A stretch of DNA of 64,000 nt from Antedon mediterranea (Eukaryota > Echinodermata > Crinoidea > Comatulida > Antedonidae). Location: NCBI RefSeq assembly GCF_964355755.1, contig NC_092676.1:14862288-14926287 (forward strand). The letters are read 5' to 3'. Of the stretch, positions 2,482-38,149 are shown piece after piece. The first letter of the stretch is position 1, and the number at the start of each line of letters is the position of its first letter. A program made the translations under genes and the position numbers. The notes beneath the pieces are model-generated. The model did not search any database and was not told the origin of the DNA. It saw only the letters and a list, made by a program, of their open reading frames with translations.

Positions 2482-2520
2482 TATTATATATATAAATCCT
2501 AAGGCAAATTACTGAAAAAA

Positions 2521-4365: not shown

Positions 4366-4460
4366 TATAGATATATATAAACACATTAGGCAATGAACAT
4401 TAATTCTAAACCGCCCGGTGATATACTGAAATTTAATTGATTAATTTGAAACGATATACT

Positions 4461-6110: not shown

Positions 6111-6249
6111 TTTCTAGTGTTTTCTTGCCATGGTTAGCAAGTATGATAGTATTGAGTTTATTTTGTTCAGCAATTACTCTTTGCATTTACTTCTTGTAGT
6201 CCCGTTTGTAATATCCTGGCATTTTCAGGCTTCAAGTAATGTGTATTTT

Positions 6250-6852
6250 TCGCCAACATTATTTTCAGAGAATAGGGCATTGCTTACCAACAGAACGCTC
6301 CACCTACAAACAAGAATGATGTTTCTTAATGGTCTAGTTAGGAGTAGACTCACCTATGGTTGCCATGCTTGGAGGGCAACAGGAAGTGAAATGTCCAAAC
6401 TTAGCACAACATACAAAACCTTCCTAAGAAGAATGCTAGTGAATGGCTTTCAAAGGGTCTGCCCACCAAACCATGTAGACATATCCTCAGATGAAGAAAC
6501 AGATGAAAACTATATAGACTGGCGTTACGTAATTGCAAATGACGATCTCTACAAAATTACTATCTGTCAACCGCTAGAAGAATATGTCTACAAGAAACAA
6601 TTCAACTGGATCGGACATGTAATTAGAAAAGAAAATGAAGATCCTACAAAAATTCTTACTTTTCACACAACACAAAGTAAACGGAGAGGTCGGAAGATAC
6701 CATCAGTACTTGATAGAGTTGTTCAACAAAGTCAACTTACTAGATGCAACTTATTGGAGCCTGCTTCAACAGAAATTTATAATTCCCAGCAATGTTTTAA
6801 CTGTATCTATGAACTGTTTTATAAGTTTTTTTGTGACTGTGCAATTTGGTAG
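6250..6852 (+). pseudogene. RTE-type LINE reverse transcriptase, C-terminal fragment
   Basis: An open frame encodes the region after the RT palm of RTE-like elements: LQTRMMFLNGLVRSRLTYG, CHAWRATGSEMSKL, then FNWIGHVIRKENEDPTKIL and SKRRGRKIPSV. These match the usual order (YGCETW-like block, LRRI-like block, GHV.R block, RRGRP block). The palm and endonuclease domains are absent. A second RTE scrap in the opposite orientation follows at 7085-7190, so the locus is rearranged. It is not a host gene, though such fragments are often annotated as craniofacial development protein 2-like. Confidence 0.75.
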
Positions 6853-7084
6853 TAGTCACTCTGATACTATACATTTAAAAGTAACAAATCCAAATGCCAA
6901 CTTTAAGTCAATGGCTACCAGATGTCTCTGTGAGACGGTTATTTGTCCCAGTACCAGTACATTATTATTTATTATGCAGCTTGAGTTAGTCAGTGTCAAG
7001 GTTTCACATACATGCATAAATACGATATAGAAAGATTAGTGTTAACCAAGCGTACTTTGGTGGCTTTAGTTATTCCGCTATCTG

Positions 7085-7190
7085 TCCATATTTTGAGTTG
7101 TGTCATAGCTGTTCTGGCCATGTAAACGTCTTATTTCCACTTTCATTAGTGATGAGTGACCCAAGAAATTTGAAATGCTGTACCTTGGTT
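7085..7190 (-). pseudogene. RTE-type LINE fragment, opposite orientation
   Basis: On the minus strand the translation includes KVQHFKFLGSLITNESGN, matching the RTE motif with the sense xVxxFKYLGSxIT that follows the RT palm. It is about 30 codons long with a stop after it, and runs head to head with the 6250-6852 fragment. Confidence 0.6.
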
Positions 7191-7219
7191 TCGGTTATTA
7201 CATATATTCTCCACACACA

Positions 7220-7312
7220 CATAATAATGATGATGATTATGATGGTGATGATGATGATGACGAACGATGATGATGATAATAATATTGATAATGATAATAA
7301 CGATTATTTATT
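7220..7312. repeat. Degenerate (GAT)n microsatellite
   Basis: Runs of GATGATGAT with AAT interruptions. The ORF over it is low-complexity (Met/Asp) and not a gene. Confidence 0.85.
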
Positions 7313-7329
7313 AATTTTAATTAATTTAA

Positions 7330-9085
7330 TTTAACCGTTTATTTTGTCTTTTTACAAGTGAAAACATTGTTTTTTAGGAGTTTTTTTTATACGGAAGTGA
7401 AGTTTATTAAAACTGCGAAATGGCCTATTCAAAATCTGTTTTTTAATTAATCTTTTTTTATGATTTTGTGGGACAATACAAAGAAATAATAATAATCATA
7501 AATAATATAACCATTAGTAAGTCACATAACTAGACGTACAACTGTCTTCTGCTTGAAGGGATCTACAGTCGTGTTTGGTAAGTTTAAGAATTTTAGCGCT
7601 TGACCTTTGTAGTTATACTTGTTTTATTGTATGATGCCTATGTAAATATGTATCTACTACTAGTATAATTATTTGTGTATATTGCCTTTCCAATGATGAA
7701 CAATATTTGCGTATTTAGTCTGCCATCTCTTTTTTCAAAATGACTTGTATTTCAGTGTTTTACAATCAACTGCATTCTTGATTTTTACGTAACTCAGTTT
7801 GATCATGCCTAACGATTATAATTTAAAGAAAAAATTACAAAAAAGGTATTTTATTTTGAAATGCTAACAAGTCTTATTTCTTCTTTATTCATCAATAGCA
7901 ATAGCAAATTGGAGCAAACAAAATAGCTTTCGCTAGTTGAAGGTTGGCACCATACTAACAAATACATTTACTTCGAAGAATAACACTGAAATAACAACAG
8001 ATATAAATGAAATTAACATACAGTAATAAAGGACATAAAAAAAAAACAACAAAACAAATGGGCTACCATAACTCAGTATCTTGATAATAAAAGTTCTGTT
8101 ATATTTTTAACAAAATTATTTTTAGTCTTAATATTCTTTATATCTAAAGGCAGTTGTGCCATTGATTGAAGCGGAACAAAATTAAGAACACATAGTTCGT
8201 ATAATCAGGTCTTCCCTGGTATAATTTATGTAGGCCTACATCTAAAGTATTACACGGCTGAAGATGACGCAGTAAATAATATACGTGGTGTACCGCAAAC
8301 TTTATATATTGTTATTATTAAAATAAATAACTGACATATCTAACGGCACTAGCACTAGCTATAGTTAATTAAAAAGGTGAGTTTTTAAAGCTGATTTTAA
8401 CATTTAAACCATTATAAAAATATGTACCGGTAGTTTTCGGGTTTTGTTTATTTATTAGGACAACTGATTCTATTTTGTTTAAAATTATTTTTGTTTTACA
8501 TCATGTTTTCGAGTTTTGTTTATTGAGCAAACCAAATACATGGATATGTGTGATTGGATGCTTTTAATTAATTGATTTTCATAACCGAGACAATTGTTGA
8601 CTTGACCAAATACTATTAGGAACAAACAAATCACTTACGCGTCAAATACATTTCAGGGGAGGAAGGGTTAGGAAATATTTGTAGGCTTAATGTAGGCTAC
8701 TACTCTATTTTAGTAGGTCATTGATTCATGCTACCATTCTCTAACACCAGCTCTTAAAAACATGAACAAAATGAATCAATAATATACAACTTCAAGAAAA
8801 CCAATACAATAATACTGGTACGCTTGCGACAAAAAATATTGAATGATGCAATTTTAAAGGAATTTTTAGTTGTTTTTTTTTGTCATTAACAAACCATGGG
8901 GAGTGGGGTGACGCTTAACGCTTAAGTAGGCCTACATATATAAATGTGTACAGAATACAAGTCAGAAAGATAGCGGCGTAGGCCTACGGTTGCTCAACAA
9001 CACCCCGCCGCTGAGAGTACCCTCTTTAATACATTATATATATATATCATAGATGGACAAAAGAAATGCACGTTAAAATATTTTG
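7330..9085. other. No gene seen; AT-rich DNA downstream of the receptor exon
   Basis: This would be intron 1 of the GABA-B-like receptor gene on the minus strand. I found no second exon of that receptor and no repeat shared with the rest of the window. Confidence 0.45.
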
Positions 9086-9121
9086 CTAAATACAAACGCA
9101 GTAAGACAATATTTGGCCTAC

Positions 9122-9349
9122 CTCCGTGTCATTCCAAATTGCTCGTAATTCGTAACCATTTAAAAGCGCTTTGCTTTTCTTTATGTGTTCCAGGGCCAGT
9201 TCAACTGCAGGTAAAATCCCATTCCCAACACCTTCCATAGAGCCAGAAAAAGGCGAGAGTCCAGCAAAATAAAGAACCTTATCATCACTGGCTTCAATTC
9301 TGTACAACAAAGTTAAAGATAACACGGTACTTATCCACAGACTAATCAT
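9122..9349 (-). CDS. GABA-B-type receptor-like, first coding exon
   Basis: Metabotropic GABA-B receptors are class C GPCRs with an N-terminal Venus-flytrap ligand-binding domain. The exon runs from ATG at 9349 to a donor (GAG|GTAGGC) after 9122, giving 76 codons ending in phase 0. Residues 1-20 form a hydrophobic signal peptide (SLWISTVLSLTLLYRI). Residues 26-76 match the start of the receptor domain: KVLYFAGLSPFSGS, then GNGILPAVELALEHI and GYELRAIWNDTE, aligning with the conserved PAVEMALE and DYELKLI region. The remaining exons, including the seven-helix part, are not in the window or were not found. Subtype cannot be assigned; a broader ANF/class C receptor is the alternative. Confidence 0.75.
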
Positions 9350-9655
9350 TATGCTAAATCAATAAAAAATGGTTGCAAAATCCTTCTCCTCCTTCCTCTA
9401 GCCTGTGTACTTAAATTATCAGTATTAAGAACGTTGTGTCACTTTCGGTAAAGAACGTGAATAACTACAATAGACTCTATATTATACAGCACCAAGTATA
9501 ATATTAGAAATTTAATTACAGAAATCCAATACGCAAAGATGTCTTTTAGATTTCAATAATTGAACGCAAATGCGTAGTTGTTACTCGATCGGTGCATCTT
9601 TGAGTAATCGAATAATTTTCGAAGAATTGAGGGCAGCAAAATTATTCAAGCTATT
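9350..9655 (-). promoter_or_regulatory. Upstream flank of the GABA-B-like exon
   Basis: By position this should hold the 5' UTR and promoter, or an intron if a non-coding first exon exists. I see a pyrimidine-rich CTCCTCCTTCCTCT tract near 9384 but no TATA box I would rely on. Confidence 0.25.
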
Positions 9656-9883
9656 TGTCGTATTCGATTTAGACTTTCACCGTTGAGTTGAGTACAGTTT
9701 TTCCGTTGAGTACTTCTTTAACGGAGTATTTTGAGCGTTGAGATTGTTCTTAACGAAAAAGCTTTCGTTGTCAACGTTTTCTATTTGAATGACTTTCTGT
9801 TGAGCACAAATTTACAATTCGAATACAAAAAGTACTCAACGAATCTTTACGCTGACAACGAAAGTTCCCAATCGAATACAACA
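9656..9883. mobile_element. MITE-like element with imperfect terminal inverted repeats
   Basis: The left end (TGTCGTATTCGATT, a block with ACTTTC, then GTTGAGTAC) is matched in inverted order by the right end (GTACTCAAC, GAAAGTTC, AATCGAATACAACA). The arms are about 45-50 bp in a 228-bp element with no coding sequence. Target-site duplication is unclear. Confidence 0.55.
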
Positions 9884-10264
9884 AAGGAGTAGATAGGCGA
9901 TGATTTTGAGAAAGCAGGTGTTACCCCATTTTCATAGATTTGCTATTTAAATTTAAAGATGTATCCGTCACCGGTTTCCTGTAACATCTATTTCACAAGT
10001 ATTCGATCGGAATCGGTTTCCTGTTTCCTGATAAATCTATGTAATCTAGCAAAACTAGAATTATTACGTCGTTTTTTTTAAATTTTACTGAAGTTCACTT
10101 TACTACATTCTCAGAAAATCATCACGATATCATTCTTCGTCATTATTTTGGTAAACTTTCGAAATCTTATAACGTCATACTCGTACTCATGTCAAAGAAC
10201 GAATACCTGCGCCCTTCCTTCTTCCCTCCCTCTACCCTCCCTTCCCTCTGCATACAATTTGTTA

Positions 10265-10605
10265 TAAAGGCCAGTTGGGAAATACCAACTTACCTGGTTG
10301 CAAAACCTGTTTTGGACCAGTTAATAAAACAATCAGTTGGAAAATCCAACTTAATTGCGCTTGAAAAACAAAATTTTACCAGATGGGAAAAACCAGTTGA
10401 CGTGATGGGAGAAAACAGTTGGAAAAAACAGTTGAAATAATCAATCAGTTGGACCAAATGAAAATCAGTTGGAAAAACGTCCAGCTGACCAGTTGAGAAA
10501 ACCAGTTGGAAGAACCAACCAGTTTGACCAAATGAAAACCAGTTGGAAAAAACAGCTGACCAGTTGAGAAAACCAATTGAACCAATTGGAAATCAGTTGG
10601 ACCAA
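10265..10605. repeat. Degenerate minisatellite built on CAGTTGGAAAAAC
   Basis: About 20 variants of the core (A/C)CAGTTG(G/A) separated by A-rich spacers, often paired with CCAACTT or GACCA. Unit length varies from about 12 to 30 bp. An ORF at 10189-10440 is a by-product of this array. Confidence 0.85.
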
Positions 10606-10609
10606 TATA

Positions 10610-11295
10610 ACATATAATTTAGGGGTCATTAGGGGTGAAATATGTCAAATTTGATATTAATTTTTTAGATATAACTTATGACTAATAGCTATTTAAATTA
10701 TCTATCTAATGTTTACATGCAACCATGGTATAGTTTTTGGGTGAAAATTGTTTTTACATTTTTATCAAAAATTAAAATTTTTCAATAATTATATTTTAGT
10801 AAAAACATAACTTAATGAAATATTTTTCAAACAAAGTTTTACAAATATTTTGCCCATAATATAGTCATGTAAAATTTACAATATAAAAACTGAAACGTAA
10901 TTTGGTATGGAATTACAGGTATTTAAATAGAAACACCCAAAATGTGAGGTCAAATAGGGAAAATTTGCTATTAATCACTTTATCAAATAAAGTATCGTAT
11001 AATAGCAATTATAATTATCTATCTAATGGTACCAAACATGATATGTTTACATGCAAAAATTGTTTTTTTTGTGAAAATGGTAATTTTTGAATTTTTTATC
11101 CAAAATTAGGTCTACAATTTTTCAAGAATTTTATTTTTAGTAAAAATGAAACTTAATGACATATTTTTTAAAACATAGTTTTACCAATATTTTGTCTATA
11201 ATATAGTCATGTTAACTTTACAATGTCAAAAGTAAAACGTAATTTGGTACGGAATTACAGGAATTTAAATAGAAACATTCAAAATTTGAGGTCAA
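10610..11295. repeat. Tandem duplication, period 342 bp
   Basis: GTAATTTGGTA(T/C)GGAATT occurs at 10897 and 11239, preceded in both by ATATAGTCATGT and followed by ATTTAAATAGAAACA and GAGGTCAAA. The units are diverged by substitutions and small indels. Non-coding. Confidence 0.85.
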
Positions 11296-12565
11296 ACGTT
11301 AAACTGGTCCAAACCAGGAAAAACCTGCGTTTTTTTCTGTCAAAGTTTTCTTAATAAAATGTTCCACTAGGAATTGTCATCCAAATACAATAATCTTTGA
11401 AGCCATGCTTACCTTTTTTTCAAATCCAAGATGGCGTACAAAATTCAAAATGGCTGACCAAAATTATATTTAAACAATATTCATATAATACTATTAAATA
11501 TTCTTTCCCAACTTTCCTCGGCAAGCATGTATCTTTTAATTTAGAATGTAAGTTCAAATCCAAGATGTCCTTCAAAATCCAAGAGGGCCACCAACATTTT
11601 GAATGGCTGCTAAATTGACTTTTAATTGACATTTTGTTTTGCCTATTAAATTGCCTTTCTAAACTGTTTAGATTTTTTTCCCGTGGTTAACCACCACCTT
11701 TATTCATTCAATGTCATATATATTTGTTGTATACATCTTCTACTTGTATCTTCTTAGGCCTACTTACATATATATTCTGTTGTATTCTGTTAAAAATCAA
11801 TTTAACACATTTCCACAATCCATTCAATTTTTGGATTATTAGTATTTTTTGTTATAAATATGTATAGGCCTAATCATAGTCTACTATTACAGTTGCATTT
11901 GTTTCTATCAAATAAATTCATTTAACAACAATGCTATTCTCTCTCTCTTAACTAATGATTACTACTTAATAATAACTATTTAAGCAACATGAACATAGTA
12001 TTCTTCATTTAACATTGTTTTTTATTTTAAATACACCCACTTTTCAACAGAGTTTCTTTAACTTAATGTACATAAAACTCACATGAAACTTAACGAACAT
12101 TGCAAGTAGAACAAAAAAATAAGAAACCTTATGATAAGAGCGTAAAATATATAACGGCATGGAATATGGTATTAACAATCTTAGTACCAATATTGCACAT
12201 TCCTTATGATTAGTTCATTATTATGAAAGACATTAATAAGATTGTTTTTATGTTTATTTTGTTTAAATTTACATATTGAGAATTAAAAATAGCATGAAAC
12301 TCAATATTCATAAATTGTATAGGGTAAAAAGCGACCATAACATTTCTTAATAAAAGTATCATTTCTTTAGGTTTATCGAAAACCGAGACCACCCTAAGTA
12401 TTGAGAAATGTTGATGGGTTCTCTACTCTATAGAACCCTATTATATAACTAAATATTGATAAGTTTTAGTGAGGCCACTCGTTTTTATAAAATCTCGAAA
12501 ATATGAGGCTCCACCTAGCTAACACAATATTGAGAATTGTTAGTTGGAGGTCTCCATTTCAATTC
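11296..12565. other. No gene seen
   Basis: AT-rich sequence with a few CCAAGATGGC-type words also seen in rep-C surroundings. No family motif or exon structure is visible. Confidence 0.45.
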
Positions 12566-13369
12566 AAGGTTTATAAAAACAAGGCCAACAGCCATTAAGT
12601 CGCGTGCTACAATGCATAGTGATACCGGACAGACAGACCGACAGACAGACCGACAGACAGACCGACAGACAGACCGACAGACAGACAGACCGACCGACTG
12701 ACACAGTGAACTATACTGACCGAAATTACTGAACATGTTTAAAAATGTTGAAATGTTTAAAAACATTTATATTTTTTTAATTTACACGTGCGTAGCCTGT
12801 CACTTTCGACGTGCTCGTATAACGTAATTTCGAGTTGAAAAGTAAGTCAAGAAAACAGAAATCGGGCAAAAAGAATGCGCAATAACATTTAACGCGCAGT
12901 GCGCGCGCAAAAATATGCGCACTCATGGAAATTTTGTAAACGCTTAAAATTGCCTGAAACGTACTCTTATTTCATCGAAAATAAATTTTGAAAATTTTAA
13001 GCGCGCGTACGCATGCGTTACATGCGCTACGCAAGTAATTGTATTGCCATATGATGATTTATGCCCTGAAATTTATTAGTACCAAATTTTATTTAATTGT
13101 GATTCATGGTTGTTAAGATATGATTACAAACGTGATTTCGTTAAATCGTGCGTAGACCGCGTAATTTTTTATTGCGCACCGTGAAAACATAACCACATCG
13201 ATTCCTGGCCATAAGGAATATTCTGTGAAAAATTGACTTAGCTAGATTAAACTGATATCAAGATAAGGTCAGAAAGCGATAAAACGCATAGTGATACCGG
13301 ACCGACAGACAGACCGACAGACAGACAGACAGACAGACAGACCGACCAACCGACCGACATAGTGAACTA
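12566..13369 (+). mobile_element. rep-B copy, left part (interrupted)
   Basis: This matches the inverse of 25497-26230 over most of its length, from ACAAGGCCA and GTCGCGTGCT through ACACGTGCGTAGCCTGTCAC and GCGCGCGTACGCATGCG to GTGATACCGGACCGACAGAC. It holds two (GACAGACC)n arrays (about 12628-12702 and 13297-13350). The element continues after an insertion at 16383. The Ser/Val/Cys/Arg ORF at 12515-12766 is only the array read in frame. Confidence 0.8.
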
Positions 13370-16300
13370 GACGCCCGTATTCTTAAACCGGACTTTAGTC
13401 GTAGTTCGAGCTAAAACTTTAAAAATGACGTCATTTTAATTCATAAACCGAACTTCAACTAAATCGCCGACTAGTTCACGCCAACCTCGACTAAATCGAG
13501 ACGAATTTTGATCGATTTTTTTAGTCCTGGAGGGGGCAGGCTAAATGGTCGACTAAATAGTTTTTAAACGATGTTTATGAAAACCGTAACAGTCATTGAG
13601 TTGTTATATTGGCCAGATATTGAAAAATGAAATATCTATTTTCATATTTAGCTTAATTAAGTATACATTGGTATAAGTTATATTAATGAAAATAATCTTT
13701 ATTTACAACCGTATACAAATTACATTATTTTCTTCGCGCAAGTCCGACTTGAACTACGTCACGCCATAGCGACAATGGCAGATGCGGAAATTCACCACGC
13801 GATGGAATGTTTAGGGGGCCTAGCGCTTTCTTGTCACCCGATGAAGTGCGTGGTTTTTCGCGATCATACTTTGTTGGTGGCCTAGAAAATATAAAAGTTA
13901 CCGTACCGCCATGGTTCCTGAATATATTTTGAATATTTTGTTTGTTGTTAATCAAAAGTACTTCACTGTTAAATTGATACTGATCTTGTTCTAATAATTA
14001 ATGATTACAATTACTTTTCATGTATATAGTCCTGATGCGTAAAAAGTGTTGTAAGAAAATGGAAAGTGATATCAGCGTTGCCAGCGATAAAATTTAAATT
14101 ATGCCGTATCCTGTCTCAAATAATGCCAGATTGGGAAAAATAATGCCAGATCCCCAAAATGTGGCCCTAAACAGCGCCACCAACGGTTTTATGTCTAATA
14201 AACGTTTGTAAAACCCCAACTGACACAAAATAGGGCCTAAAATTGTATCCCCATGTCGTACAAAATTTATATTTTTAGTTTTGTGAGTAATAACTAATAA
14301 TTCTAAATATCTGGGGTGCGAAAGTGGTAATTGCAAATGACAACAACACCAACCCCACCCCCCTCCCCCACCCAAAAAAAAAAAAAACCTGTTACACACA
14401 GCCATGGAAATTTATAATTTTTGAACTGAAATATGAGAGCTGCTCGATGGCCGGGATCTTTGCACTTAATTTCAAATATGAAAGGATCTTAGCCCACCAT
14501 AATTAGAAAATAGCAATTATAATTTGAAATAGGAAATAAAAAAAATTATTTTGAGTGTCTCCAGGACCTCAGCCCCACCATGGTTGATAAGAAAATTTGG
14601 AAAAAAATACCTACTCGATGGCCGGAAATGGCACTTAATTTAAAATATGAAAAAAAATATATTTATTAGTGTCTCCATGATCTTAGCCCACCATAGTTCG
14701 AAAATGGCAATTATAATTTAAAATAGGAAATCAAAATATATATTAATTGTGTCTCCAGGATCTCAACCCCACCATGGTTGGGGCTGAGGTAAGAAAATAT
14801 GAAAAAAATAGAGCTGCTCAATGGTCGGAAATGGCACTTAATTTCAAATATAAAATAAAAATATATTTATTAGTATACCTCCAGGATCTTAGCCCATGAT
14901 AGTTTTGAAAGTGCCAATTATAATTTAAAATAGGAAATAAAAATATATATTAAGTGTTTTCAGGACCTCAGCCCCACCATGGTTGGGGCTGAGGTAAAAC
15001 AAATTGGAAAAATAGAGCTGCTAGATGGCCGGAAATATAATGGCACTTAATTTAAAATATGAAATCAAAATATATTTATTAGTGTCTCCATGATCTTAGC
15101 CCACCATAGTTCGAAATTGGCAATTATAATTTAAAATAGGAAATCAAAATATATATTAATTGTGTCTCCAGGACCTCAACCCCACCATGGTTGGGGCTGA
15201 GGTAAGAAAATATGAAAAAAATAGAGCTGCTCACTCAATGGCCGGAAATGGCACTTAATTTCAAATGTGAAATAAAAATATATTTATTAGTACCTCCAGG
15301 ATCTTAGCCCATGATAGTTTTGAAAGTGCCAATTATAATTTAAAATAGGAAATAAAAATATATATTAAGTGTTTCCAGGACCTCAGCCCCACCATGGTTG
15401 GGGCTGAGGTAAAACAAATTGGAAAAATAAAGCTGCTAGATGGCCGGAAATTGCACTTAATTTTAAATAAAAATGTATAAGAGTCCCTAGGACCTCGCCC
15501 CATCATGGTCACTGAGAGGTGAAGAACATTTTGAAATATAGGGTTGCTACGACGATGCAAATGGAACATAATTTGAAATATGGAAAACAAATTCTCTAGA
15601 AGAAATTCTTTTTAAAATTAGAGCTTCTAGTTACCGGAAATTGCCATTTTAAGGGTTGGGGTAGGGGTGTGGCCACTTATAATTATGAACTGAAAAAACA
15701 AAACCCCTTTCATAATGTTTTCGTTCAATTGTCTCTATATCTGGGGATCCAATAACCCGCATGGTCTCTGAAATAGAGCAACATAATTGGCCAATAGCTA
15801 GCCTCTTCGGATTTGTTGTGCTGCCTATATCGCACACACGGTAGTTTTCGAGCAGCCTCCCTATCCGAAGAGTCGATGAAGTCCGAAACGAAAGGATGGA
15901 AGAACTATTGTACGGAAAATCCGAACAGATCTGTTTTTTACGATATGATATTGTGTAAGGTGATATGTATTAACAAAATATTTTATTTTTGTTCTGTGGT
16001 ATATTATTTTTTTGGTTGTTCAAAAAACACAAAATTATGCCAGATTATGCTAAAAACGGCTAAATAATGCCGCGGCATTATGCCAGATGCCGTGGGCCTC
16101 CAAATAATGCCAAAAAGCATAATAATGCCAGAAATGGCAACTATGAGTGATATCAATGCGCAAAATTTCGTCTGCTCTTCAAATACTCTCTTGTCATTGG
16201 CCAATGAATAGCCTTTGTTACCCAGACGTGTGCAACTCGACTAAAAGCTCGACTTCATTAAGTCGAACTGCAAACTTCGACTACTTCGTTTTTTAATCGA

Positions 16301-16382
16301 ATTTGAAGTAATAGCTCGAACTACGACTTTTTCAAGTCGAACTTCGAACTACGACTAAAGTCCGGTTTAAGAATACGGGCGA
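13370..16382. mobile_element. 3.0-kb inverted-repeat element nested in rep-B
   Basis: The ends GACGCCCGTATTCTTAAACC and GGTTTAAGAATACGGGCGA are inverted copies, and similarity between the arms continues for about 150 bp through CGTAGTTCGA blocks. The element splits rep-B: the flanks GTGAACTA and TAGAGTCGC are joined as GTGAACTATAGAGTCGC in the uninterrupted copy at 25500, so the insertion site is seen empty within the window. Inside are a 205-bp tandem array (14440-15500) and two weak Harbinger-like traces: plus-strand codons from 13774 with MKCVVFRDHT, and a minus-strand ORF at 15649-15837 with TMRVIG. Target duplication is TA at most. A degenerate non-autonomous PIF/Harbinger-type element is my inference. 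Confidence 0.7.
14440..15500. repeat. Tandem array, about 205-bp units, alternating as 410-bp pairs
   Basis: The marker CCCCACCATGGTTG recurs with starts near 14571, 14765, 14970, 15179 and 15384 (spacings 194, 205, 209, 205). Between markers, units alternate between AGCCCACCATAGTTCGAAA (near 14690 and 15095) and AGCCCATGATAGTTTTGAAA (near 14890 and 15305), giving a two-unit higher-order repeat. Each unit also carries GGCCGGAAATGGCACTTAAT. The palindrome CCCCACCATGGTTGGGG lies in most units. Non-coding. Confidence 0.9.
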
Positions 16383-17200
16383 TAGAGTCGCTTCCACGCG
16401 ACTAAAAAACAGAGACCATCATACAACACAATATTGTGTAAGGCTTTTACAATTCATCGCGAGCAGGACATGTAATGTTATAGTCCGGTGGCAGGAGGGG
16501 GAATCACCACCCGAAAGGGGACAAATTGCTATCCAACTTTTCTAGACCACAATTTTCCGTAAATTACGAATATGGAAGGTAATCGACCAGGATAGGAAGC
16601 GTTTTCGGGATATAAGGGTCAAAGTTCAAAATTGACCAATTACAACAATGTATTATGTATTATGTATTATAACCAATTTATTGAAGTTCAATTTGGTCGT
16701 TTAATACATTTGTATATAGATTATATAGATATCTATTCAGTCGCCTTATAAAACAAATACTTTGCAATTAAAGGTCAAATGTCAATATTGACCAATCACA
16801 AAATTTGCATAAAAAACCAAATAAAAACTAAAATTTAAGACAAAATGTTATGTTTTATCATACTATTAAGATATCAGTCATACACAATCAACGGAGCACA
16901 TTCATCATTACACCAGTTGACATAGGTCAAAGGTCAACATTTGAACAAGTGATAATACTAAATAATGCAAAGTTATTCAAACTATGAGATCGATCGTTAT
17001 TTGATCAGTGAAGTTATGGTATTTTTTCTAGTGCGCATTATTTTAAATGTATTATAATACTGTAAAATAAATAATAAAATTAATATTATGACTGTTAAAA
17101 TGTTATTATGTTAAAATGTTACGCTGACCTTCAATGATTTGCCACTACACAGTTGCATTTATTAGGGCTACAATATTCGTTTTTGGAAAATAAACTACTA
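16383..17200. repeat. rep-B right end followed by rep-C-like DNA
   Basis: Bases 16383-16420 complete rep-B (TAGAGTCGCTTCCACGCGAC). Beyond it the sequence is rep-C-like, with GGGTCAAAGTTCA near 16616 and a perfect AGGTCAAAGGTCA at 16924-16936. The junction of rep-B end and rep-C sequence recurs at 25370-25530 and near 35280, so the two may be parts of one larger element. Confidence 0.6.
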
Positions 17201-17399
17201 TTCATCAGAACCAAAGAATACCAATTCGTCCACAGGGTAGGGCATAGGCAGATCCAGGTGGCCAAACTCAATCCACAACTCACTACATAGACAGACCACA
17301 ATTTTTATATAGATTAGCCACAGATAGTTTGGCCCATACAGGAAAGAGTTGCCTGTACACAAAGGATTCTAAAATAACCCATATGGATTTGCCCGAATG

Positions 17400-18110
17400 A
17401 GCCCTCTAAGGACTCTTTTGGAAACTCTATATATACTTATAGCCAAGTCCCGGTCCTTCATGGATGGACATTAAGCCCCATAATGGAAATATAATGGGTG
17501 ACACTGTGGGTTCATATAGACAGGCGGGGCCCATGGAATAAAGCTGGCTGTGCACTCTCGATCCTTAAGGAACACTTATGGATTTGCCCAAAATAACCAC
17601 AAAATGGACATATGAGGGGTGACACTATGGGTTAATAGACAGGCGGGGCCCTCCATGGAATAAAGCTGCATGTGCACTCTCGATCCTTTAGGAACACTTA
17701 TATGTATTTGCCCTAATTAATCCAATGGCCGGTCCTCCGTGGACATTTAAGCCCCATAATGGAAATATAAGGGGTGACAATGTGGGTTTATATAGACAGG
17801 CACATGGAATAAAGCTGCCTGTGCACTCTCGATCCTTAAGGAACCCATATGGATCTTTCCTAAAATGAAACAACAGGTCATCTATTTACACCCTTCTGTG
17901 GTTCTCTACTGTATGTTCAGTTCCACATTTGGTTCCTGTATCGGATCAATGCATTTGGCTACATTTAAGTTACCGTACTGTGTTAGAAATATATCGGGTA
18001 ACTAAAAATCCAAGATTAAGCCATGGGAAAAGCCTGTCTCTGTACACTCTCAATCATTTTAAAAGGAACCCATGTGGATTTGCCAAAATGAACCAAGAGT
18101 AACTTCTGGA
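17400..18110. repeat. Irregular tandem repeat, 120-220-bp units
   Basis: GCACTCTCGATCCTT recurs near 17553, 17675 and 17824, with a variant near 18044. CCCCATAATGGAAATAT recurs near 17475 and 17753. The units also share GGTGACA(C/A)T(A/G)TGGGTT and GGAATAAAGCTG. Non-coding. Confidence 0.8.
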
Positions 18111-19589
18111 TTCTCTGTGAGCCGTACATTCCGTTTAATTAGAGATACATGGATACCTGAATGACATTTCTCAAATGTTTCTGAAAGACATTGTACTGTA
18201 TAGTAGTAGTAGTCTTCCGATTCCACACCTCTTTGAATTAAATCCGCCCCGATAGGCTCTTATGTACAGGATTTCAAAGCAATAATCACACTTGTATTTT
18301 TCAAACATTTAATCTATTAGATTTAATAAAAATATCTATTATAAACGTTAGAAATCTCTATTCCATGTCGTTATTTAGATGAGAAAAACATGTCAAAGGT
18401 TAAAATTACAGAAAAATATTATATGTTTCAGTCACTTTTTGAAAAAAAATGTTGAATTATGGCAAGTATAGACAGATATATTGTGAATAATTTGACACAA
18501 AAATTGGCTCCAAAAGACAAATATTTATTAACTATATATAAATTATAAATATAAATTCTGACATAGGCGAGCACAATGCAAAAACTTCGGTACAAATCTC
18601 CGCCTTGGATACCTACCTTATCTATCTCAGATGTACCGCGAAACGTAGATTTGAGCATTAGTTTTCACATCAACGCTATTGTTCCATATTTCTATCTTAG
18701 GAAGATATTATAAAGAATTTTTTAACACGATTTATGATTTCAACAGTAGATTTTCAACTCAATTTCAATTCTTCGCGGGTCAAAGTAATTTCCGGGTTCA
18801 CCTTGCAACAACCCGGTTTCAACTATTTTCTCTCTTTTATACACAAGGGAGCAGTTAAAATAATATATTTGACCCTAAAGGCGACTGGAAACAGGCACTT
18901 TCCATATATCAATCAATACAGTGTTCCTTTGGAAGAAGGAAGAAAAAAACCGATAGTAGGACTGGAGCTTAAGTTGCATAGCCATTTCAGTTTTTTGTTT
19001 ATTTTAGGAACGGACCGCGCGTGTGTGAAGGTACAGTAGTTAAAAAATATTATACTGCAAATTAATAAAGATCAAATTAAATATACGCCATAAAGAATCG
19101 GAATATATTGTGGGCAATAGTATATAAAATTACATAGGGAGATTTGATGATAAGACATTTTGTTTAAAATCGAGTAAAATCCCGATAGTTGATTGAGTAA
19201 GCTGGCAGGAATAACTGTAGTGTAGGCTATCTGTGTCCCGTTAGGACCGAGATGTCTGCCCATGTTGCAAGCCGTAATGTCTTCTTTCTTGGGCCCCCTC
19301 TGTCACAGCAGTTAGTTTAAAACGATGTTTAAATTAAATAATGTATTAATAATTATTAGGATGGTATTTATTTGAATAAACGCCTCTACAATAAAACATC
19401 ACTTTGAATAATAATCATTATACTATTTGTAGTAGAATTCATCGCACTGTTATCTACAATTTACCAAGCATTTGTTATTCATTTTTACCACTTTTCATAT
19501 CTATTAGAGGATTTCATTTGATTATAAATGTTACCATATTATTAAAACTAAAAAAAGTAACATATCCCTCGAATAAGCACCCCCCTCAA
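18111..19589. other. No recognisable gene
   Basis: An ORF of 101 codons at 18734-19039 (plus) has no recognisable motif. No repeat family shared with the rest of the window was seen. Confidence 0.4.
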
Positions 19590-20345
19590 ATGAACTCCGC
19601 CTCCCCAAAGTGGTGGCGCCAGCGGGGGGGCTACGGGGGCTCTAGCCCCCTCGTCGGGGAGCCTAGCCCCCCCCCCCCTCGGGGAACACGGGTACTTTTT
19701 GTCGGGGAATATAATATATATAATATTCATTATTGCCAGCGATCTAGCTTACGACTAAACATTAGCTAGGTACGCGCACTTGTCTGGCGGTATCCCTTTG
19801 TACGAATCGTTTAACGTTGGGTCGAGACGCGTGATATCAAGTTCCATCGAGGGACCAAATGTGTAATGTAGTTATTTTCCAGGCGAAGTTTACCGACGGT
19901 TACCGAAGGGAACACGGGTACTTTTTGTCGGGGAATATAATATACAGTAAAAAGCGTTCGCGTTCACTTCGTAGCTAGCTTCAGCGCCTAGAAAACCGCG
20001 ACGTTTCATTGACTGTGAGAGTACGTCAGAGTGATATTATGCACTTTATATGCATTCATTATTGCCAGCGATCTAACTTATTACTAAACAATAGCTAGGT
20101 TCGCACTTGTCTGGCGGTATCCCTTTGTACGAATCGTTCAACGTTGGGTCGAGACGCGTGATATCATGTTCCATCAAGGGACCAAAATGTGTACTGTAGT
20201 TACTTTCCAGGCGAAGTTTACTGACGGTTACGTCGTGTACTGCGTCGACGACGTACGCTACACTACAGCAAAAACGAATTATGTTAATTGTTCGTATGTT
20301 CACCAATTTTTTAATTTACAAGTAACCTTCTGTACCGTGGGGCAC
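19590..20345 (-). repeat. 329-bp-spaced duplication carrying a conserved short ORF
   Basis: The stretch from ATTATTGCCAGCGATCTA to about 177 bp further is present at 19728-19902 and again at 20055-20232. On the minus strand both copies stay open through DITRLDPTLNDSYKGIPPDK, differing only just before it (SMEL against LMEH), while the ends differ. A second word, GGGAACACGGGTACTTTTTG, is repeated at 19682 and 19908. I do not recognise the peptide: it could be a duplicated exon, a gene relic or a repeat that happens to stay open. The left edge (19610-19690) is a G/C-run block with CCCCCTCGTCGGGG, also seen at 21080 and 38810. Confidence 0.5.
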
Positions 20346-27420: not shown

Positions 27421-30400
27421 ATGGCGGCTGCAGATAGATCAATGAGATCCGTATTTGGTAAATATTATCCCCTTATACTATTAGGCCTAGTAGGCTAGCT
27501 AGTGAATAGGCTAGGCCTCTAGCTAGGGTAGTTAGTAGTCACCAGCGTGCAGGAGGCCGCGCCTAGGCGGTATCGGATCATCTCGGTCGCGTTTCATTTC
27601 GGTCGCGCTTCCGGTAAATCGAACTTCCGGCGATTTCTATGGAACGCCGCTCAATGCAGTACTGTACACACTGTAAGCTCTAATTAAAGATCGAAGTGTA
27701 GTCTCTATTATTGTTTAGGTGTTTATTTAAAAATGATTTTATATAATAATCATTATATTTAAATAAATATTGTAAAAACAGTATTTTATTAATATTAGTT
27801 TAACTTTTTTTTAAATGTTTTTATAAGCATTATATTTTGATATATTTTGTAAATATTCTATTTGTTTCTGACGGGAAAAATAACATACAAACTCACTTTA
27901 CACTTTTGTCAATGATCATTCAATCTTTTTATTTTTAAAACAAAAACATATACACAAATATTTACATATATTTAAAAACAAAACATAGATACGTTAATGT
28001 AATTCAAAAAACAAACTCGTTTCACACTGTTTTTCAATTCAATCCTTTCATTTTTAAAACAAAAACGCATATACAAATGTTTACATTCATCATTCAAATT
28101 GAAACCTTTTTATTTACATCTACAAACGTTATTTAATTTATCTATTTATTAAATCTTTTATTTATTAGCAATATTTACATCTATCTCATCTACAAATCGC
28201 GAACATCATTTGATATAAGGAGCGATCTCTCTGATCGTTGGCCTGCGCGATACTCGTCCCAGAGGCGTAAGAGCGTTCTAGTTGCACGTCGGTAAGCTTG
28301 TCGCTGAAGCCGGTCAACATCTTCGCGATGAACTAATTCCATTGTGATGTGAACATTCTGACTCTCTTCATGCAGCACCCCGATTAAGAGGTAGAGTTGA
28401 AGTTGAAGTCCTTTTCGATTCAGTCTGTTGTGATACGGGTGTCTCGAAAACAGAGACCTCGAAAACAGAGACCAGAGACCCGAGACCCAGGGTCTCTGTT
28501 TTCGAGAAAATCTCGAAAACAGAGACCCCCACTAAAACGTCTCAATATTACGTAATATAGGGGGTCTCTGTTTTCGAGATTTTCTCGAAAACAGAGACCC
28601 CCACTAAAACGTCTTTAGTGGGTGTCTCTGTTAAACAGAGACCCCCTATATAACGTATTATTTAGACGTTTTAGTGGGGGTGGAGTCCCCACTAAAACGT
28701 CTCAAGAATGACGTATCAGTAATAAACGGTAACTGATATGCCGATCAAAGAACATGCCGCAACGATAAGAAGAGATTGATGAATTCTTGAACACGTGTAA
28801 AAAGACTGTCATTTTGGAATACAAGGTCGACGTCCTAGAAGTAAGATGTATAAATGCATGCTGTGCCTTTTAGAAGCTAAAAAGCGGGAGATTATTTAAA
28901 AAGCTGACACTAGTTTCGTAACATTTATTTACAAGCATAAAAGATAATAACGTACAATGCAATAACAAAATGATATGAGGTCAGACTTTGAGGCAGACTG
29001 GAGGATGAAGACAAATATATTGTGTTGGGCGAGCCTTAAAAAAGAAATGAATTAAAAAAAAAAAAAAATTGATAAATAAATAAACATAAATTCACGGTTT
29101 TTGCGATAAAAGTTGGGTGTTAATAATTTATGACCTTAAACAGGGATTATATTAGGGGGTCTCGGGAAATCTCGAAAAAAGAGACCCCCAATATAATGAG
29201 ACGTTTTAGTGGGGGTCTCTGTTTTCGAGAAAAACTCAAACAGAGACCCCCTATATTACGTAATATTGAGACGTTTTAGTGGGGGTCTCTGTTTTCGAGA
29301 TTGTCTCGAAAACAGAGACCCTGGGTCTCGGGTCTCTGTTTTCGAGGTCTCTGTTTTCGAGACACCTGTTGTGATACCCCTCAAGGTCGCTGTTGGTCCT
29401 CGTTGTCAACAGACAATGGTTTCATTCTAATTCAATAGCACGAGACATAATGCGACACGTCAATGCATTATGCTTTAAAAAAATGTTACATTACATACAG
29501 TACACAATCGTAATAATATCTTCAGTGCAATATAGTGTATAAAAAAGCTCAGTAAAGTCTCTCACTGATTTTAACTGGCACCAAACAAATATTCCCAATT
29601 TACTCATTCATAATTATTAACATATTGGAGTTGTCTTCCTAAGCTACTTGTTGTGTCCTTAAAATATAGATAAAAAACAGGTTTATAAATTCGAACTGCT
29701 ACACGTACCGAGTGCTGAAAGAGAGTTAAATCGGACAGTTAAGTCTCAATCCTACAATAGCATCCATTTTCGTATGCTTTATGCATAATTGACGCGCCAT
29801 ACACCACGATTGATATTGTTGAAAATTGACCTTAATTGACACGCGACCGAAATGAAACGCGACCGAGATGATCGTAATTCGCCTAGGCTAGTCTAGTAGG
29901 TCTTTTTTTGGCAAATGCTGGACAACCCGTACCCATCCACCATGCCAACTACAGTACAACTAGCCTAAGCCTAACTAGGGCTAGGCCTAGGCTACTTTCT
30001 AGGCATGGGGCCTAAAGCTTAGTTCAGTACCCAACTTGGCTAACTCTTACCCCAAATAATTGGTCAACTCATACCTAAGTATTTGGCTTACTCATCTCAT
30101 ACATTAACATACCAAATATTGTTATTAGCTTTTAACTTGTACCCATTATTTGGTTTACTTACTGTACTTGTTCATACCCATGGGCCATTGTTTGCTTATT
30201 GGGAAGTACAGTATACATATATATGTTATGCGCGATTTGAACTATTTGCGCAATTTGAAATTGCGCAAATAATTCCTTGCGCAATTTGAAATTGCGCAAA
30301 GAATTCTTGCGCAATTTGAAATTGCGCACGGACTTTCTTGCACAATATTAAATTCCATTGTAGGCCTTATCACATTTGTGGGCACTGTTTTCACATTTGT

Positions 30401-33400
30401 GGGCACTGTTTTCAAATTTGTGGTGATGTACTGTATTTTCACATTTGGTGTTTTCACATTTGTGGGTGATGTTTTTTCACATTTGATGTTTTCACATTTG
30501 TGGATGATGTGTTTTCACATTTGGTGTTTTCACATTTGTGGGTGATGTGTTTTCACATTTGTAGGTGATGTGTTTCCACATTTGTAGTTGTTTTCAAATT
30601 TGTGGATGATCATTTTTACATTTGTAGTTGTTTTCACATTTGTAGACGTTTTTACATTTGTGGGTTTAACAGTTGCCTGCCTTATAATATTATACTGCAT
30701 TATACTGTACAGTATGTATGATATTGATATTGATATTTGTTACTCACAAATGTAATTAATGTACAGTAAATTAGGACGTCTGACAAAGAAGGCACTTAAG
30801 TGAGGCCTTGTGAAGATATACAGTATGTATAAAATTGTGTATTACAGGATAATACTATGCTACAGCCTACTGAGATATTGTGTTTTTTTTTAGTTGGAAA
30901 TATTCCTTATGAGGCAACAGAAGATAAACTGAAAGATATCTTTTCTGAGGTTGGACCAGTCTTAAGTTTTCGTTTAGTATTTGATAGGGAAACTGGCAAA
31001 CCAAAAGGCTATGGGTTTTGTGAGTACCAAGACAAAGAAACTGCCCTCAGTGCTATGCGCAACTTGAATGGCTATGAATTAAATGGGCGACAACTGCGTG
31101 TTGATAATGCTGCAAGTGAAAAGAATAAAGAAATGGGTAAGTATATTTTCTCCCAACACGTAAACAAGATACAGTACGTCTACTGTATATGAGAATGTTG
31201 TAATTAATCTAAATTTATTTTTTTTATTTATTTTTAATTAGTTAATGTTACAATTTGTTTGTGTTATAGATATTGTACGGGTCAAGTAGTATGTATTTTC
31301 ATACAGTAATAACAGTACAGTATATGAATAAATAAATTTTAAAACCTAGATGGATTTTGAGAGGAAAGATTTTGTGTCTATCTAAAAAATAATAAATTAC
31401 TTTAAATTAATAAAGATAATAAATTTAAATTCTATATCATCAGTGTTATAGAAATAGTTGTGCATGATTACAGTAGATGTCATCTCAGTGAAGGTTTATA
31501 TTGATTGATGCAGAAATACTGTACAGTAGGAGGCGCAACTTGAGCCAGTTTGCTTTAGACTCAGAGGCAGTGACAATGTTAACCCAAAACTATTCATTAG
31601 CTATAATATTAGGACATAATGCCACCTGATATTTGGTGCAACCAAGATAGTTTGAAAATCATTTTATGTCAGTCAAGTAGGCAAATACATTTTCCATTGT
31701 AATTAATAGCATTCATTGCTTATTGTTTTGTCTTCAGATTCAGGAACAGTCACTGTTTTACCCGAGGTACAGTATACACTCTCTTTGATACATTTTTATT
31801 GTCTTCACATTATGCTGTTTACCGGCCATACTGTATTTAAGGTCCTAAATGTACACAGCAACCAGTATAATCTAATATATAAATTTACGTAAGGGCAAAA
31901 TTTGGTAAATCGCGCATTATTTCTAGAATGTTTACTCGATGGTATATAAAGTTGGTTAGAATCTTGGCACAGTACTGATTTTAACCACCTGATGTAACCC
32001 TGTTTACTAATTAAATTTAGTTATAATTAGTAATTGTTGACAATTAAAACGAATTTAGAATCAACGATTTGCCCTAAATAGGGGTGTTTTCCGATCGTGG
32101 TATACACTCTAATGGTTACTCTTAATTCTGAGTAACAATTTCCAGAATGGTATATTAATTATTATTAAAATTCAAAAATTATTTGGAGGTTCAATTTACT
32201 GTAGTATGGAAAATATCATTTAATACAGTGATTACAATGATTCTTGTAGCAACAAAACTTCAGTAGCACATTTTAACTTTGACACTGAATCAAAGTCTGA
32301 AAGAAGTCATAATTATTGTCTATTTGTATGTTTTAAAAAACGTTCTACTAATTTTAACACAATTTTTAAAACAATTGTATTATAGTCACCATTTGCAGAG
32401 GCAGTTACACCAGCTGAGGCACCAGAAGCTATTTCCAAAGCGGTCGAAAGCCTTCCTCCAGAACAGATGTTTGAGTTGATGAAACAAATGAAAGTATGTC
32501 ACGTCAATCATTATGATCATTATTGTTATACTTAATTTCCATTCATTCCTAACCTTCAATTTAAATTATTAATTTTTTCCCCTATGCCGCAAACAAAACT
32601 ATTTTGGAAACCGTAAGCAAAAAATAGTGTTTTCAACTTGATTGATTGTGCTTCAATAGTACTGAATAGTAATTGTAATTTCATAATTAACAACAGTGGT
32701 TTGAAAAATTAAAATCTGCACACTAAGTATTTAGGGTTCAATTATAAAGCAAAAGTTTAAAATCTGTTTTACATTATTTTTATTTAAGGTGTACTACAGT
32801 ACAGCTACAGTATTAATTACTGCTTCGTTGGACATTGTTTTTTTATCGCGATCCCATGCTCCCACGGGAAGGTATTGTTTTTTGTTACGAGAGGTTTGCT
32901 ATGCCTCCGATGGAAGGGTGTCAAATATACTGTACACCATTTTTACCAGCTATCAAAAGAGAACAATATAATAACCCACCTTAGATCGACGAATTCTACC
33001 CCTACAACTACGCCTGATTCTAGCCACAGGCCTTGGCTAGGCTCGGAGCCTAGTGATTTTTGATATAAAATATTAATAAAAATGCTTCGTTTCCATTTAG
33101 TTGTACAGGAGTTTCTCTTGAAAACTTAATTTTAAATCAATATATTCCATGTTAAAATATCAAAAAATAATACTACAATGTTGCGTAAAATGTAATTCTA
33201 AATATGGTCATTATAACAAATTGGCCAATACCGCTAAAATAATAGAATTCATTCGTTGAATGAAATCTATTATATTAACACCTTTAATAATGAATGAATT
33301 TAATATATTATAAAAAAACAAATAAATTTTACTGTTTTAATGTGAATTAAATGCTAGGCCTAGTTTTTATTCAATCTGATTCAAATGACAGGAATCTATT

Positions 33401-36400: not shown

Positions 36401-38149
36401 GATTTGTTTTTATACCAATTGGCTATCATTTAAAATTACTTTTCTACATTGTAACTATTTCTAGGTATGATGGATCGAGGCATGGAATCAAGGGATATTG
36501 AGCCAAGAGGTATGGAACCTCCGCGAGGTATGGATCTTCAAAGAGGTATGGATCTTCAAAGAGGAATGGATCCTCAAAGAGGAATGGATCCTCAAAGAGG
36601 AATGGATCCTCAAAGAGGAATGGATCCTCGTGGCATGGGGCCAAGGGTATCTGATCATCCTCATCCTCCACCAGATAATCGATCAATCCCTGTTGATCGA
36701 CGAGGACCTGGCTATGATCAAGTTTTTGAAAGGGGTCCTGCTCCACCACGAGTACATGATCCAAGAGCCTCTCATGATTTTACACGTCAATCAGGCTCGC
36801 AGCCGATGGCACCAGGCGTATGTACAGTTTTTTTTTTCAAGTTAATAATTTAACTTTTATTCAACAATAACAAAATATACTGTACATCCCAAATATCAAA
36901 TATCAATAACTTTCAAATGGGCATGTTCTTTTGAAGCCTAAAGCTTTATTAAAACTTACTTATGTAAGTATTGGAAAACCATGCTGTAAATTACTCAGGT
37001 CGGAGTGGGCAGATCAGCACCCAACAGCATGGTGAGATCCCTGGGGAGAAAAATTGATTTATTACTAAAATCATACAATTTCTTAAAATAAGGTTGTGCT
37101 AATACCTTGTATACTTTCTGATAAGTCCCACTTTGGAATTTTTGCTATTTTCCCTTTGAAGACATGGCCTGTATCCCATACAAGGGTAATTTACTGTCCC
37201 TGGACGCGAGGCCTGTATACAGGTTGACTTTTTGGTCACTGACTTGCACTTTTTGAGAATTTAACCTTTGACCTAGGTCCCCAAAAAATGCAATTTTTCG
37301 AAAGGCCAAAACATTTCACATAACAATAAAACCAACAATTTACATAAAAATGTATTTTGCATTTTTCCTAAACCTATTAAAAATACTTTATTTAGCCTCA
37401 GCCACTTGGGGTAGGAACCTAGCGTCTTCACAGGGTTAACAAATTCATTAAAGGGTGGCTGCGTGTACAAAATTACTAAAATTTAAAAAAATCAAAATTC
37501 AACACTATAATCTAGGTTTGTTTATTACACATAATAAATAGGGTGCTATACAAGGAGGTTTACATCATACAGTATCTCAGCACACTCTTCATCATGGACA
37601 ATCGCCACTACAGGTTACTGGCCCTTCATTACCCTCAAGAGGTGCTCCAAACCCAACGGCTCAAGAACAAGAAAAGGTAATTGATAAAAAATGTTTATTT
37701 TTTTCCTCTCACCAAACCACAACCAAGTGTCTATTTTTATATTTTATATAAAGTGGCCGTATTTCTAGAAAGATTTCCAGTGAATTCAAGAGATGCATTA
37801 CAAATTAAATTGATATGAATCTTTAACAATTTTTGTGAATATCTCAATCCAGTTAGTTAAAAATGAAGTTGAATGGTTCATGAATATTTATGGAGTGAGA
37901 GCAGTTATTCTGTTTAGGCTATTGATTATGTACAGAATACAGAAGTTATTTATTTTCAATTCAATTTTATTAATTTAAATATTATAATTATTCAATATTA
38001 TTATTTTAACTTTCATTTCGTAGGCAGCCCTCATTATGCAAGTTTTACAACTTTCTAATGAGCAGATTAATATGTTGCCATCAGAACAAAGGCAAAGTAT
38101 TATGGTGTTGAAAGAGCAGATAGCAAGAAGTCAAGGACAACTTCCATAA
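27421..38149 (+). CDS. CSTF2: Cleavage stimulation factor subunit 2 (CstF-64), ten exons
   Basis: The nuclear CstF subunit that binds the GU-rich element downstream of poly(A) sites and, with CSTF3 and symplekin, drives mRNA 3'-end cleavage. Coding exons: 27421-27457, 30894-31136, 31738-31766, 32386-32493, 34274-34393, 35494-35566, 35862-36035, 36465-36817, 37542-37676, 38024-38149; all introns are GT-AG and frames join exactly, giving 465 residues (human about 577). Order: short N-terminus [15 protein letters not shown] (residues about 11-90) with [17 protein letters not shown] and KGYGFCEY; hinge domain with [14 protein letters not shown] and [20 protein letters not shown]; Pro/Gly-rich region; RGM hexapeptide repeats; C-terminal helical domain ([10 protein letters not shown] to [14 protein letters not shown]). 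It is shorter than human mainly in the Pro/Gly region. The first intron carries large mobile elements. A tau-type (CSTF2T) label is unwarranted because the gene has introns. Confidence 0.97.
28190..29415 (-). pseudogene. MULE (FLYWCH-linked type) transposase C-terminal fragment, interrupted
   Basis: Two pieces, 29415-29378 and 28436-28190, flank the foldback element; they share one reading frame if the insertion and one target copy are ignored. The upstream piece reads TRTNSDLEG and the junction continues YHNRLNRKG, matching the MULE transposase motif with the sense RTNN-x-EGWHNRLN (here Tyr for Trp). The downstream piece has [28 protein letters not shown] and SERSLL, like the C-terminus of that family. 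A stop codon lies just upstream of the first piece, and the DDE catalytic core is missing, so this is a relic of about 100 codons. Confidence 0.65.
28437..29366. mobile_element. Foldback element of GTCTCTGTTTTCGAGA modules
   Basis: A 930-bp insertion flanked by TGTTGTGATAC on both sides (28426-28436 and 29367-29377), an 11- or 12-bp target duplication. Ends are GGTGTCTCGAAAACAGAGAC and its inverse. Each arm (about 300 bp left, 225 bp right) is a series of smaller inverted modules: TCTCGAAAACAGAGACCCCC or its inverse, joined by CACTAAAACGTCT and ATTACGTAATATAG. The arms are inverted relative to one another, so the element is a palindrome of palindromes around a 400-bp unique core (28740-29140) without a recognisable gene. 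Target length fits Mutator-type integration. Confidence 0.85.
30246..30328. repeat. Three tandem palindromes, about 31-bp period
   Basis: In CSTF2 intron 1, TTGCGCAATTT and its inverse flank a single central G at 30246-30268, 30277-30299 and (last base altered) 30307-30328. Spacers are short and AT-rich (ATAATTCC, AGAATTC). Each unit can form an 11-bp stem. Confidence 0.9.
30360..30665. repeat. Minisatellite, core TTTTCACATTTGTGG
   Basis: About 14 variants of TTTTCACATTTG(T)GG(G)(T/A)GATG in tandem, units about 16-27 bp. Located in CSTF2 intron 1 about 230 bp before exon 2. Confidence 0.9.
30894..31136 (+). CDS. CSTF2: CSTF2 exon 2: RNA recognition motif
   Basis: This exon encodes nearly the whole RRM. 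RNP2 is VGNIPY (the Val codon is split with exon 1) and RNP1 is KGYGFCEY, with the two aromatic residues that stack on RNA. It continues through [18 protein letters not shown] and [13 protein letters not shown], which is close to identical with vertebrate CstF-64. Acceptor TTTTTTTTAG, donor GG|GTAAGT. Confidence 0.97.
31880..32112 (+). repeat. rep-A, short copy in CSTF2 intron 3
   Basis: Matches the inverse of 4130-4357: TTTACGTAAGGGCAAAATTT, AAATCGCGC, CTCGATGGTATATAAAGTTG, AACCACCTGATGTAACCCTG, then CCCTAAATAGGGGTGTTTTC. Only the terminal 230 bp of the family is present. Confidence 0.85.
32386..34393 (+). CDS. CSTF2: CSTF2 exons 4-5: hinge domain
   Basis: Exon 4 (32386-32493, 36 codons) ends [11 protein letters not shown]; exon 5 (34274-34393, 40 codons) holds [20 protein letters not shown] and RIVNPEIAM. 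In the family this helical hinge binds CSTF3 (CstF-77) or symplekin in a mutually exclusive way. The intron between contains AT-rich DNA with a G/C patch (32850-33060) and no other gene. Confidence 0.95.
34620..35400. repeat. rep-B and rep-C-like fragments in CSTF2 intron 5
   Basis: CTGCGCACTCATGGCAATTT near 34641 and GAAATTTATGAGTACCAAAT near 34678 match rep-B interior. The middle has ATGGC(T/C)GCCAT(C/T)TTG words and a short tandem of GTAGATTTTGATGGCAAAAT (35047-35100). The right end, from about 35288, repeats the rep-B terminus in degenerate form (CAACGCGACTCTACAG, then ATGTCGGGTCGGTCGG) and ends with ACGCGACTACAGCCATGCAT. The ORFs at 34651-34964 are not genes. Confidence 0.6.
36073..36240. 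repeat. 40-bp tandem repeat, four units, in CSTF2 intron 7
   Basis: AAGGATAACCTTCAGAGCTA starts at 36081, 36121, 36161 and 36201 with exact 40-bp spacing and almost no divergence, so the array is young and likely length-variable. Confidence 0.95.
36465..36817 (+). CDS. CSTF2: CSTF2 exon 8: RGM hexapeptide repeat region
   Basis: The exon encodes 118 codons (the first Gly is split with exon 7). Bases about 36524-36640 are an 18-bp tandem repeat giving five RGMD(L/P)Q hexads in a row, flanked by looser RGME and RGMG units. It sits where mammalian CstF-64 carries MEAR(A/G) pentapeptides, so both have a Met-Arg-rich repeat but with a different unit. The rest ([20 protein letters not shown]) is Pro/Arg-rich and probably disordered. 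The ORFs on both strands over this array are shadows of the repeat. Confidence 0.93.
36850..37500. other. CSTF2 intron 8; no other gene seen
   Basis: Intron 8 spans 36818-37541. A near-DR1 TAACCTTTGACCTAGG lies at 37261. The minus-strand ORF at 37273-37470 has no motif. Confidence 0.5.
38024..38149 (+). CDS. CSTF2: CSTF2 exon 10: C-terminal domain and stop
   Basis: Forty-one codons plus [23 protein letters not shown] and [17 protein letters not shown] match the conserved three-helix C-terminal domain that in the family contacts Pcf11. The Glu-Lys pair ending exon 9 completes the [12 protein letters not shown] motif. Confidence 0.96.
   Translation, partial: AALIMQVLQLSNEQINMLPSEQRQSIMVLKEQIARSQGQLP

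Follow-up and report, generated by a model that had tools for sequence, protein, structure and literature searches.

How did a block of nested palindromes come to stand inside the relic of a Mutator (MULE) transposon, and by what means do such blocks move? These questions are raised by a locus of Antedon mediterranea lying within the 64,000-nucleotide stretch of DNA that we analyzed, here termed the window. The answer that we consider very likely is that the block is a non-autonomous foldback DNA transposon, probably of the Mutator (MULE) type, nested in a second non-autonomous MULE.

Anatomy of the foldback element

The element is composed of alternating inverted TCTCGAAAACAGAGAC modules and occupies 931 bp of the window; the initial annotation had recognized it as a foldback, which stands, but had closed it one base early (28437-29366, 930 bp). 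Its parts are as follows.

28437..29367, no strand: foldback element, 931 bp, with ends GGGTGTCTCGAAAAC...GTTTTCGAGACACCT
28437..28744, plus strand: left arm, a terminal repeat followed by hairpin modules, the linkers mostly with ACTAAAACGTC outward
28745..29150, no strand: unique, non-coding middle of about 400 bp
29151..29367, minus strand: right arm, inverted relative to the left arm
28427..28436, no strand: left target duplication, 10 bp, GTTGTGATAC
29368..29377, no strand: right target duplication, 10 bp, GTTGTGATAC

The mutually inverted arms, modular linkers, and nested hairpins first described at this locus are all present in the window sequence, with 88% complementarity between the arms over 133 nt and 96% over an outer 47 nt, and the folding energy of the foldback strand is -278 kcal/mol, versus -90 kcal/mol for shuffles (z = -36.5). 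The arms are built of tandem units of 69 to 80 bp, and the end motif TCTCGAAAACAGAGAC stands twice in every unit, as an inverted pair; the commonest unit is 69 bp (TCTCGAAAACAGAGACCCCCACTAAAACGTCTCAATATTACGTTATATAGGGGGTCTCTGTTTTCGAGT), and an 80-bp variant also occurs. With long inverted arms of short tandem repeats that differ in length between copies, the family has the structure of Foldback transposable elements. The family encodes nothing recognizable: complete copies contain no transposase homology, open reading frames in long copies mostly reflect translation of the modules, and comparison of these copies with the MULE transposases detected in the genome yielded nothing significant.

The foldback family and its target duplication

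The genome search for module clusters proposed in the initial annotation was productive, returning 696 matches to the module with up to two mismatches (reversed-pattern control, 0) and many copies with target duplications; the 20-bp end GGTGTCTCGAAAACAGAGAC returned 121 matches at the same tolerance (control, 1). With the boundaries of the element taken as GGGTGTC...GACACCC, the flanks match over exactly 10 bp at 22 of the 32 foldback loci examined. When loci sharing one insertion are collapsed to a single count, 15 independent insertions have an exact 10-bp duplication, rising to 19 if one mismatch is allowed, and 5996 trials with permuted flanks gave no exact match and 13 one-mismatch matches. 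The targets of free-standing copies are unrelated to one another. These data establish that the family has a mobile unit delimited by GGGTGTCTCGAAAACAGAGACC ends and produces 10-bp target duplications; as a discrete mobile unit with a target duplication and many dispersed copies, it conforms to the Foldback class in behavior as well as in anatomy.

In the window, where a duplication of 11 to 12 bp had been claimed, the true length is also 10 bp (28427-28436 and 29368-29377), since GACACCC is the right terminus of other complete copies and the last base of this lineage has changed from C to T. The apparent 11 to 12 bp consist of the 10-bp GTTGTGATAC together with chance matches beside the changed base.

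The shortest complete copy measures 68 bp, with two motifs and a duplication that contains one mismatch, and the longest 2.5 kb. Some copies of 196 to 457 bp are made of modules alone, and the unique middle of about 400 bp is kept in some copies and missing from many short ones; because of this size range and the frequent loss of the middle, the ends alone seem to be necessary. The alternation of modules is present in every copy, and strict outward polarity is seen in several: in the better-ordered elements L015, L016, and L021, ACTAAAACGTC is directed outward in both arms, and in L022 and L029 the linker polarity is scrambled, the pattern expected if self-complementary units had undergone slippage or inversion. 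Two foldbacks lying 20.7 kb apart, L012 and L013 (G000:C4 4055356 and 4076084), have an identical target duplication and so probably reflect a local duplication and not two insertions.

Superfamily and the search for an autonomous partner

The target length had been read at the outset as pointing to Mutator-type mobilization, and 10 bp fits this reading, falling within the 8 to 11 bp of the Mutator (MULE) superfamily (PMC6446971). As our searches turned up no autonomous element bounded in this way, it is from the 10-bp duplications and by analogy that we infer a non-autonomous family of Mutator type. An autonomous relative with GGTGTCTCGAAAAC ends, as suggested in the initial annotation, was looked for and not found; pairing of end sites among the matches listed likewise yielded no autonomous element with GGGTGTCTCGAAAAC ends, a result that is not proof of absence. 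None of the 36 Pfam MULE-domain loci adjoins a foldback end within one foldback-bounded element, as judged from ends among the matches listed in repeat searches that may miss matches, and the five MULE loci that were read all have other ends. The inner part of a 2.2-kb foldback copy was considered as a lead to a partner and rejected, having proved to be a separate inserted repeat of 1.84 kb. This non-coding repeat (L014 positions 619-2455) is enclosed by a foldback whose ends are intact, and three further loci (L064, L065, and L066) have it at about 97-98% identity and without foldback ends.

A left-truncated foldback was found within a 17.5-kb giant MULE (L049+L050 positions 2472-19960; G000:C2 about 1368471-1385959). 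The giant encodes a MULE-like transposase of 651 aa and a PHD/OTU protein, and its ends are an 11-bp minisatellite; the transposase open reading frame is found at five loci, in each case 8-9 kb from a foldback. Comparison of two copies gave 99.7% identity over 13.9 kb, and the giant was probably active recently. A sister family (L060+L067 and L068+L069), with a transposase 48% identical to that of the giant, has its own minisatellite ends (ACCGGAAAAA), and in L060 a PHD/OTU-like protein is encoded as well. The end motif and the transposase of these two families seem to diverge together.

Mobilization of the foldback by this giant PHD/OTU-bearing MULE would be compatible with the explanation that we favor and would add the name of the enzyme; we rate it as unlikely. 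The end repeats of the giant (ACCGAAAACAA) have the 8-mer CGAAAACA in common with the foldback module, as well as a GGT..GTCT-like tip, a truncated foldback lies inside the element, and one giant copy is readable with a 10-bp duplication, CACTGTTCCT. The shared 8-mer is a lead only, however, because it was noticed post hoc and the tips are otherwise unlike; moreover, in another giant copy the duplication is read as 8 bp, and the sister family has ACCGGAAAA-type repeats and lacks CGAAAACA. A bolder proposal, to which we give less credence still, would make the foldback a parasite of Mutator transposases reduced to the minimum: its entire body would be a chain of inverted binding sites with an CGAAAACA core, capturing the transposase of the active giant, and the element would also spread inside other MULEs, thus multiplying by two routes at once.

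The host element and transport of the foldback as cargo

The element that contains the foldback has the following features.

27569..29880, minus strand: host element, a non-autonomous, internally deleted MULE with foldback cargo; homology among the flanks of L001-L007 ends exactly here
27561..27568, no strand: left target duplication of the host, GCCTAGGC, equal to 29881-29888
29881..29888, no strand: right target duplication of the host, GCCTAGGC
27576..27607, plus strand: left inverted repeat, GATCATCTCGGTCGCGTTTCATTTCGGTCGCG, a 100% match to the right end over 32 nt
29842..29873, minus strand: right inverted repeat, 32 nt, a perfect match to the left
28190..28436, minus strand: part of the C terminus of the host MULE transposase (NRLNRKG...), split by the foldback and resuming at about 29378-29435

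The host measures 2312 bp in the window, or 1371 bp without the foldback and one duplication, and has asymmetric 7-bp tips (GGTATCG and GAATTAC) outside the 32-bp inverted repeat. The protein sequence encoded on its minus strand, when read across the empty site, has 29% identity (E 9e-11) to the C terminus of a 709-aa MULE/FLYWCH protein of the same genome, the Pfam scores of which for MULE and FLYWCH are both slightly below the curated cut-offs, and relatives of the fragment are located up to about 1.5 kb after Pfam MULE domains at several loci. With a transposase remnant, inverted repeats, and a duplication within 8 to 11 bp, the host is itself a Mutator (MULE) element. A GT-AG intron of roughly 100 bp in the host transposase of L054 and L027 is missing from the window copy; precise intron loss was considered and rejected, as the missing stretch exceeds the intron of L054, the deletion at 28400-28411 having also taken neighboring exon bases.

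At seven loci, L001-L007, the window among them, a foldback is inserted at one and the same target base, between shared flanks, inside one host of 1.4 to 1.6 kb, and the shared sequence breaks off sharply at the host inverted repeats on both sides. The host has its own 8- to 9-bp duplication at six of the seven: GCCTAGGC in the window and GGCCTACC, CGTTGGGG, ATAAAAAG, CAGACGAT, and CTCTCCCCG elsewhere, the 8- to 9-bp flanks of the six non-window copies differing and being duplicated in five (L004 has no matching duplication at its ends). In the host copy L054 the site is empty (TCTGTTGGGATATCCCTCAAGG), and the transposase exon around it is otherwise longer. Further carriers (L027, L032, L033, L034, L036, L040, and L041) bring the total to at least 14, and the host at L053 retains only about 20 bp of foldback. 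The shared site, the host's own duplications, and the empty-site copy thus demonstrate a single foldback insertion into a MULE transposase exon, followed by spread with the disrupted, internally deleted host. Because at least seven host copies, each at another locus, share the target base, the foldback reached the window as cargo, so that the initial annotation was right to see a MULE relic around it and wrong to have it land in that relic here.

The same target base at seven loci might instead mean that the foldback repeatedly and site-specifically hits this exon and struck seven host copies separately, but this is very improbable: all seven nested foldbacks share the changed last base (GACACCT) and their hosts the same deletion to the right of the foldback, the free-standing copies have unrelated targets, and host and foldback have diverged by substitution to a similar extent (1-3% and 0.7-4.2%, respectively) and in a correlated manner (Mantel r 0.60, exact p 0.023), although the p value is modest with only seven copies and the foldback of L007 is somewhat more distant than its host.

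That a satellite expansion of a 70-bp unit mimics an element, with a flanking repeat by chance, is scarcely credible, for although the arms are tandem arrays and some copies comprise nothing else, satellite arrays lack the discrete mobile ends and target duplications that this family displays, the latter exact at 15 independent sites, and an empty site exists. Because its ends and modules recur together with 10-bp duplications, the foldback is a mobile family and not a satellite, and the three outcomes that the initial annotation had set against itself, namely an absence of other copies, a chance duplication, and satellite expansion, have each been tested and discarded.

Elsewhere in the window, a CSTF2-like RRM exon followed by a repeat-rich region with RGMDPQ-type repeats (30833-31192 and 36444-36853) indicates that a gene of the host genome adjoins the nested transposons, and a tRNA gene was located at 2292-2363 (Rfam RF00005, 60.7 bits).

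A possible mechanism

On our preferred explanation, that of a foldback of probable Mutator type nested in a second non-autonomous MULE, the history begins with one entry into the exon of a gene for MULE transposase; the disrupted and internally deleted host then reached many loci, making its own duplications there and transporting the foldback with it. The repeated end motifs may serve as extra transposase-binding sites, a suggestion based on MULEs with tandem terminal repeats (PMC3310237) and on Galileo, as far as it is discussed in PMC4079207. Arm length would shift by replication slippage or unequal exchange between self-complementary units. Movement of the foldback itself is envisaged as cut-and-paste by a MULE transposase acting in trans, which may be encoded elsewhere or now be lost.

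Comparison with known elements

What is most instructive in this system is the cargo relation: it is a clear case of a foldback multiplying as the passenger of another transposon, with the consequence that not every copy represents a transposition of its own. Because the end motif is repeated as inverted pairs, the proposal that it supplies extra binding sites for the transposase can be tested directly. The family is also well delimited, has clean 10-bp duplications as well as an empty site, and enlarges a kind that is poorly sampled beyond flies, nematodes, and plants.

Modular foldback arms of short tandem repeats are found in the TU elements of sea urchins, which have an 8-bp duplication, and in Drosophila FB, and the present element resembles both in the anatomy of its arms.

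FB and sea urchin foldbacks are mentioned together with Tetris of Drosophila virilis, the repeats of which seed long satellite arrays (PMC4079207). Like our element, Tetris is a non-autonomous foldback with tandem repeats in its arms, 8- to 10-bp duplications, a probable place in the Mutator superfamily, and an autonomous partner that was not found, but its repeats are about 220 bp, whereas the present units are about 70 bp and largely self-complementary (PMC4079207). In plant MULEs with tandem terminal repeats, the end recognized by the transposase is similarly repeated inward, which has been proposed to raise recognition; these are direct duplications of whole long repeats, in contrast to a motif that here alternates in orientation many times (PMC3310237).

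Tm1, a Mutator/Foldback family of root-knot nematodes and, with Tetris, the nearest match among described kinds, shares variable-length composite inverted repeats with internal repeated motifs, MITE-like copies, Mutator-type duplications, and nesting, and its asymmetric 7-bp tips resemble those of the host element in the window (PMC3169594). By its description, Tm1 differs in having a 9-bp duplication, a motif of about 14 bp, and members that encode a Phantom-type transposase (PMC3169594); the present family has 10-bp duplications and units of 69 to 80 bp with inverted motif pairs, and no coding member of it was found. Judged by the length of the duplication, it does not belong to Tm1 proper. 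The foldback described here is a new family of a known kind, with an anatomy and a duplication length that fit the kind represented by Tm1 and Tetris.
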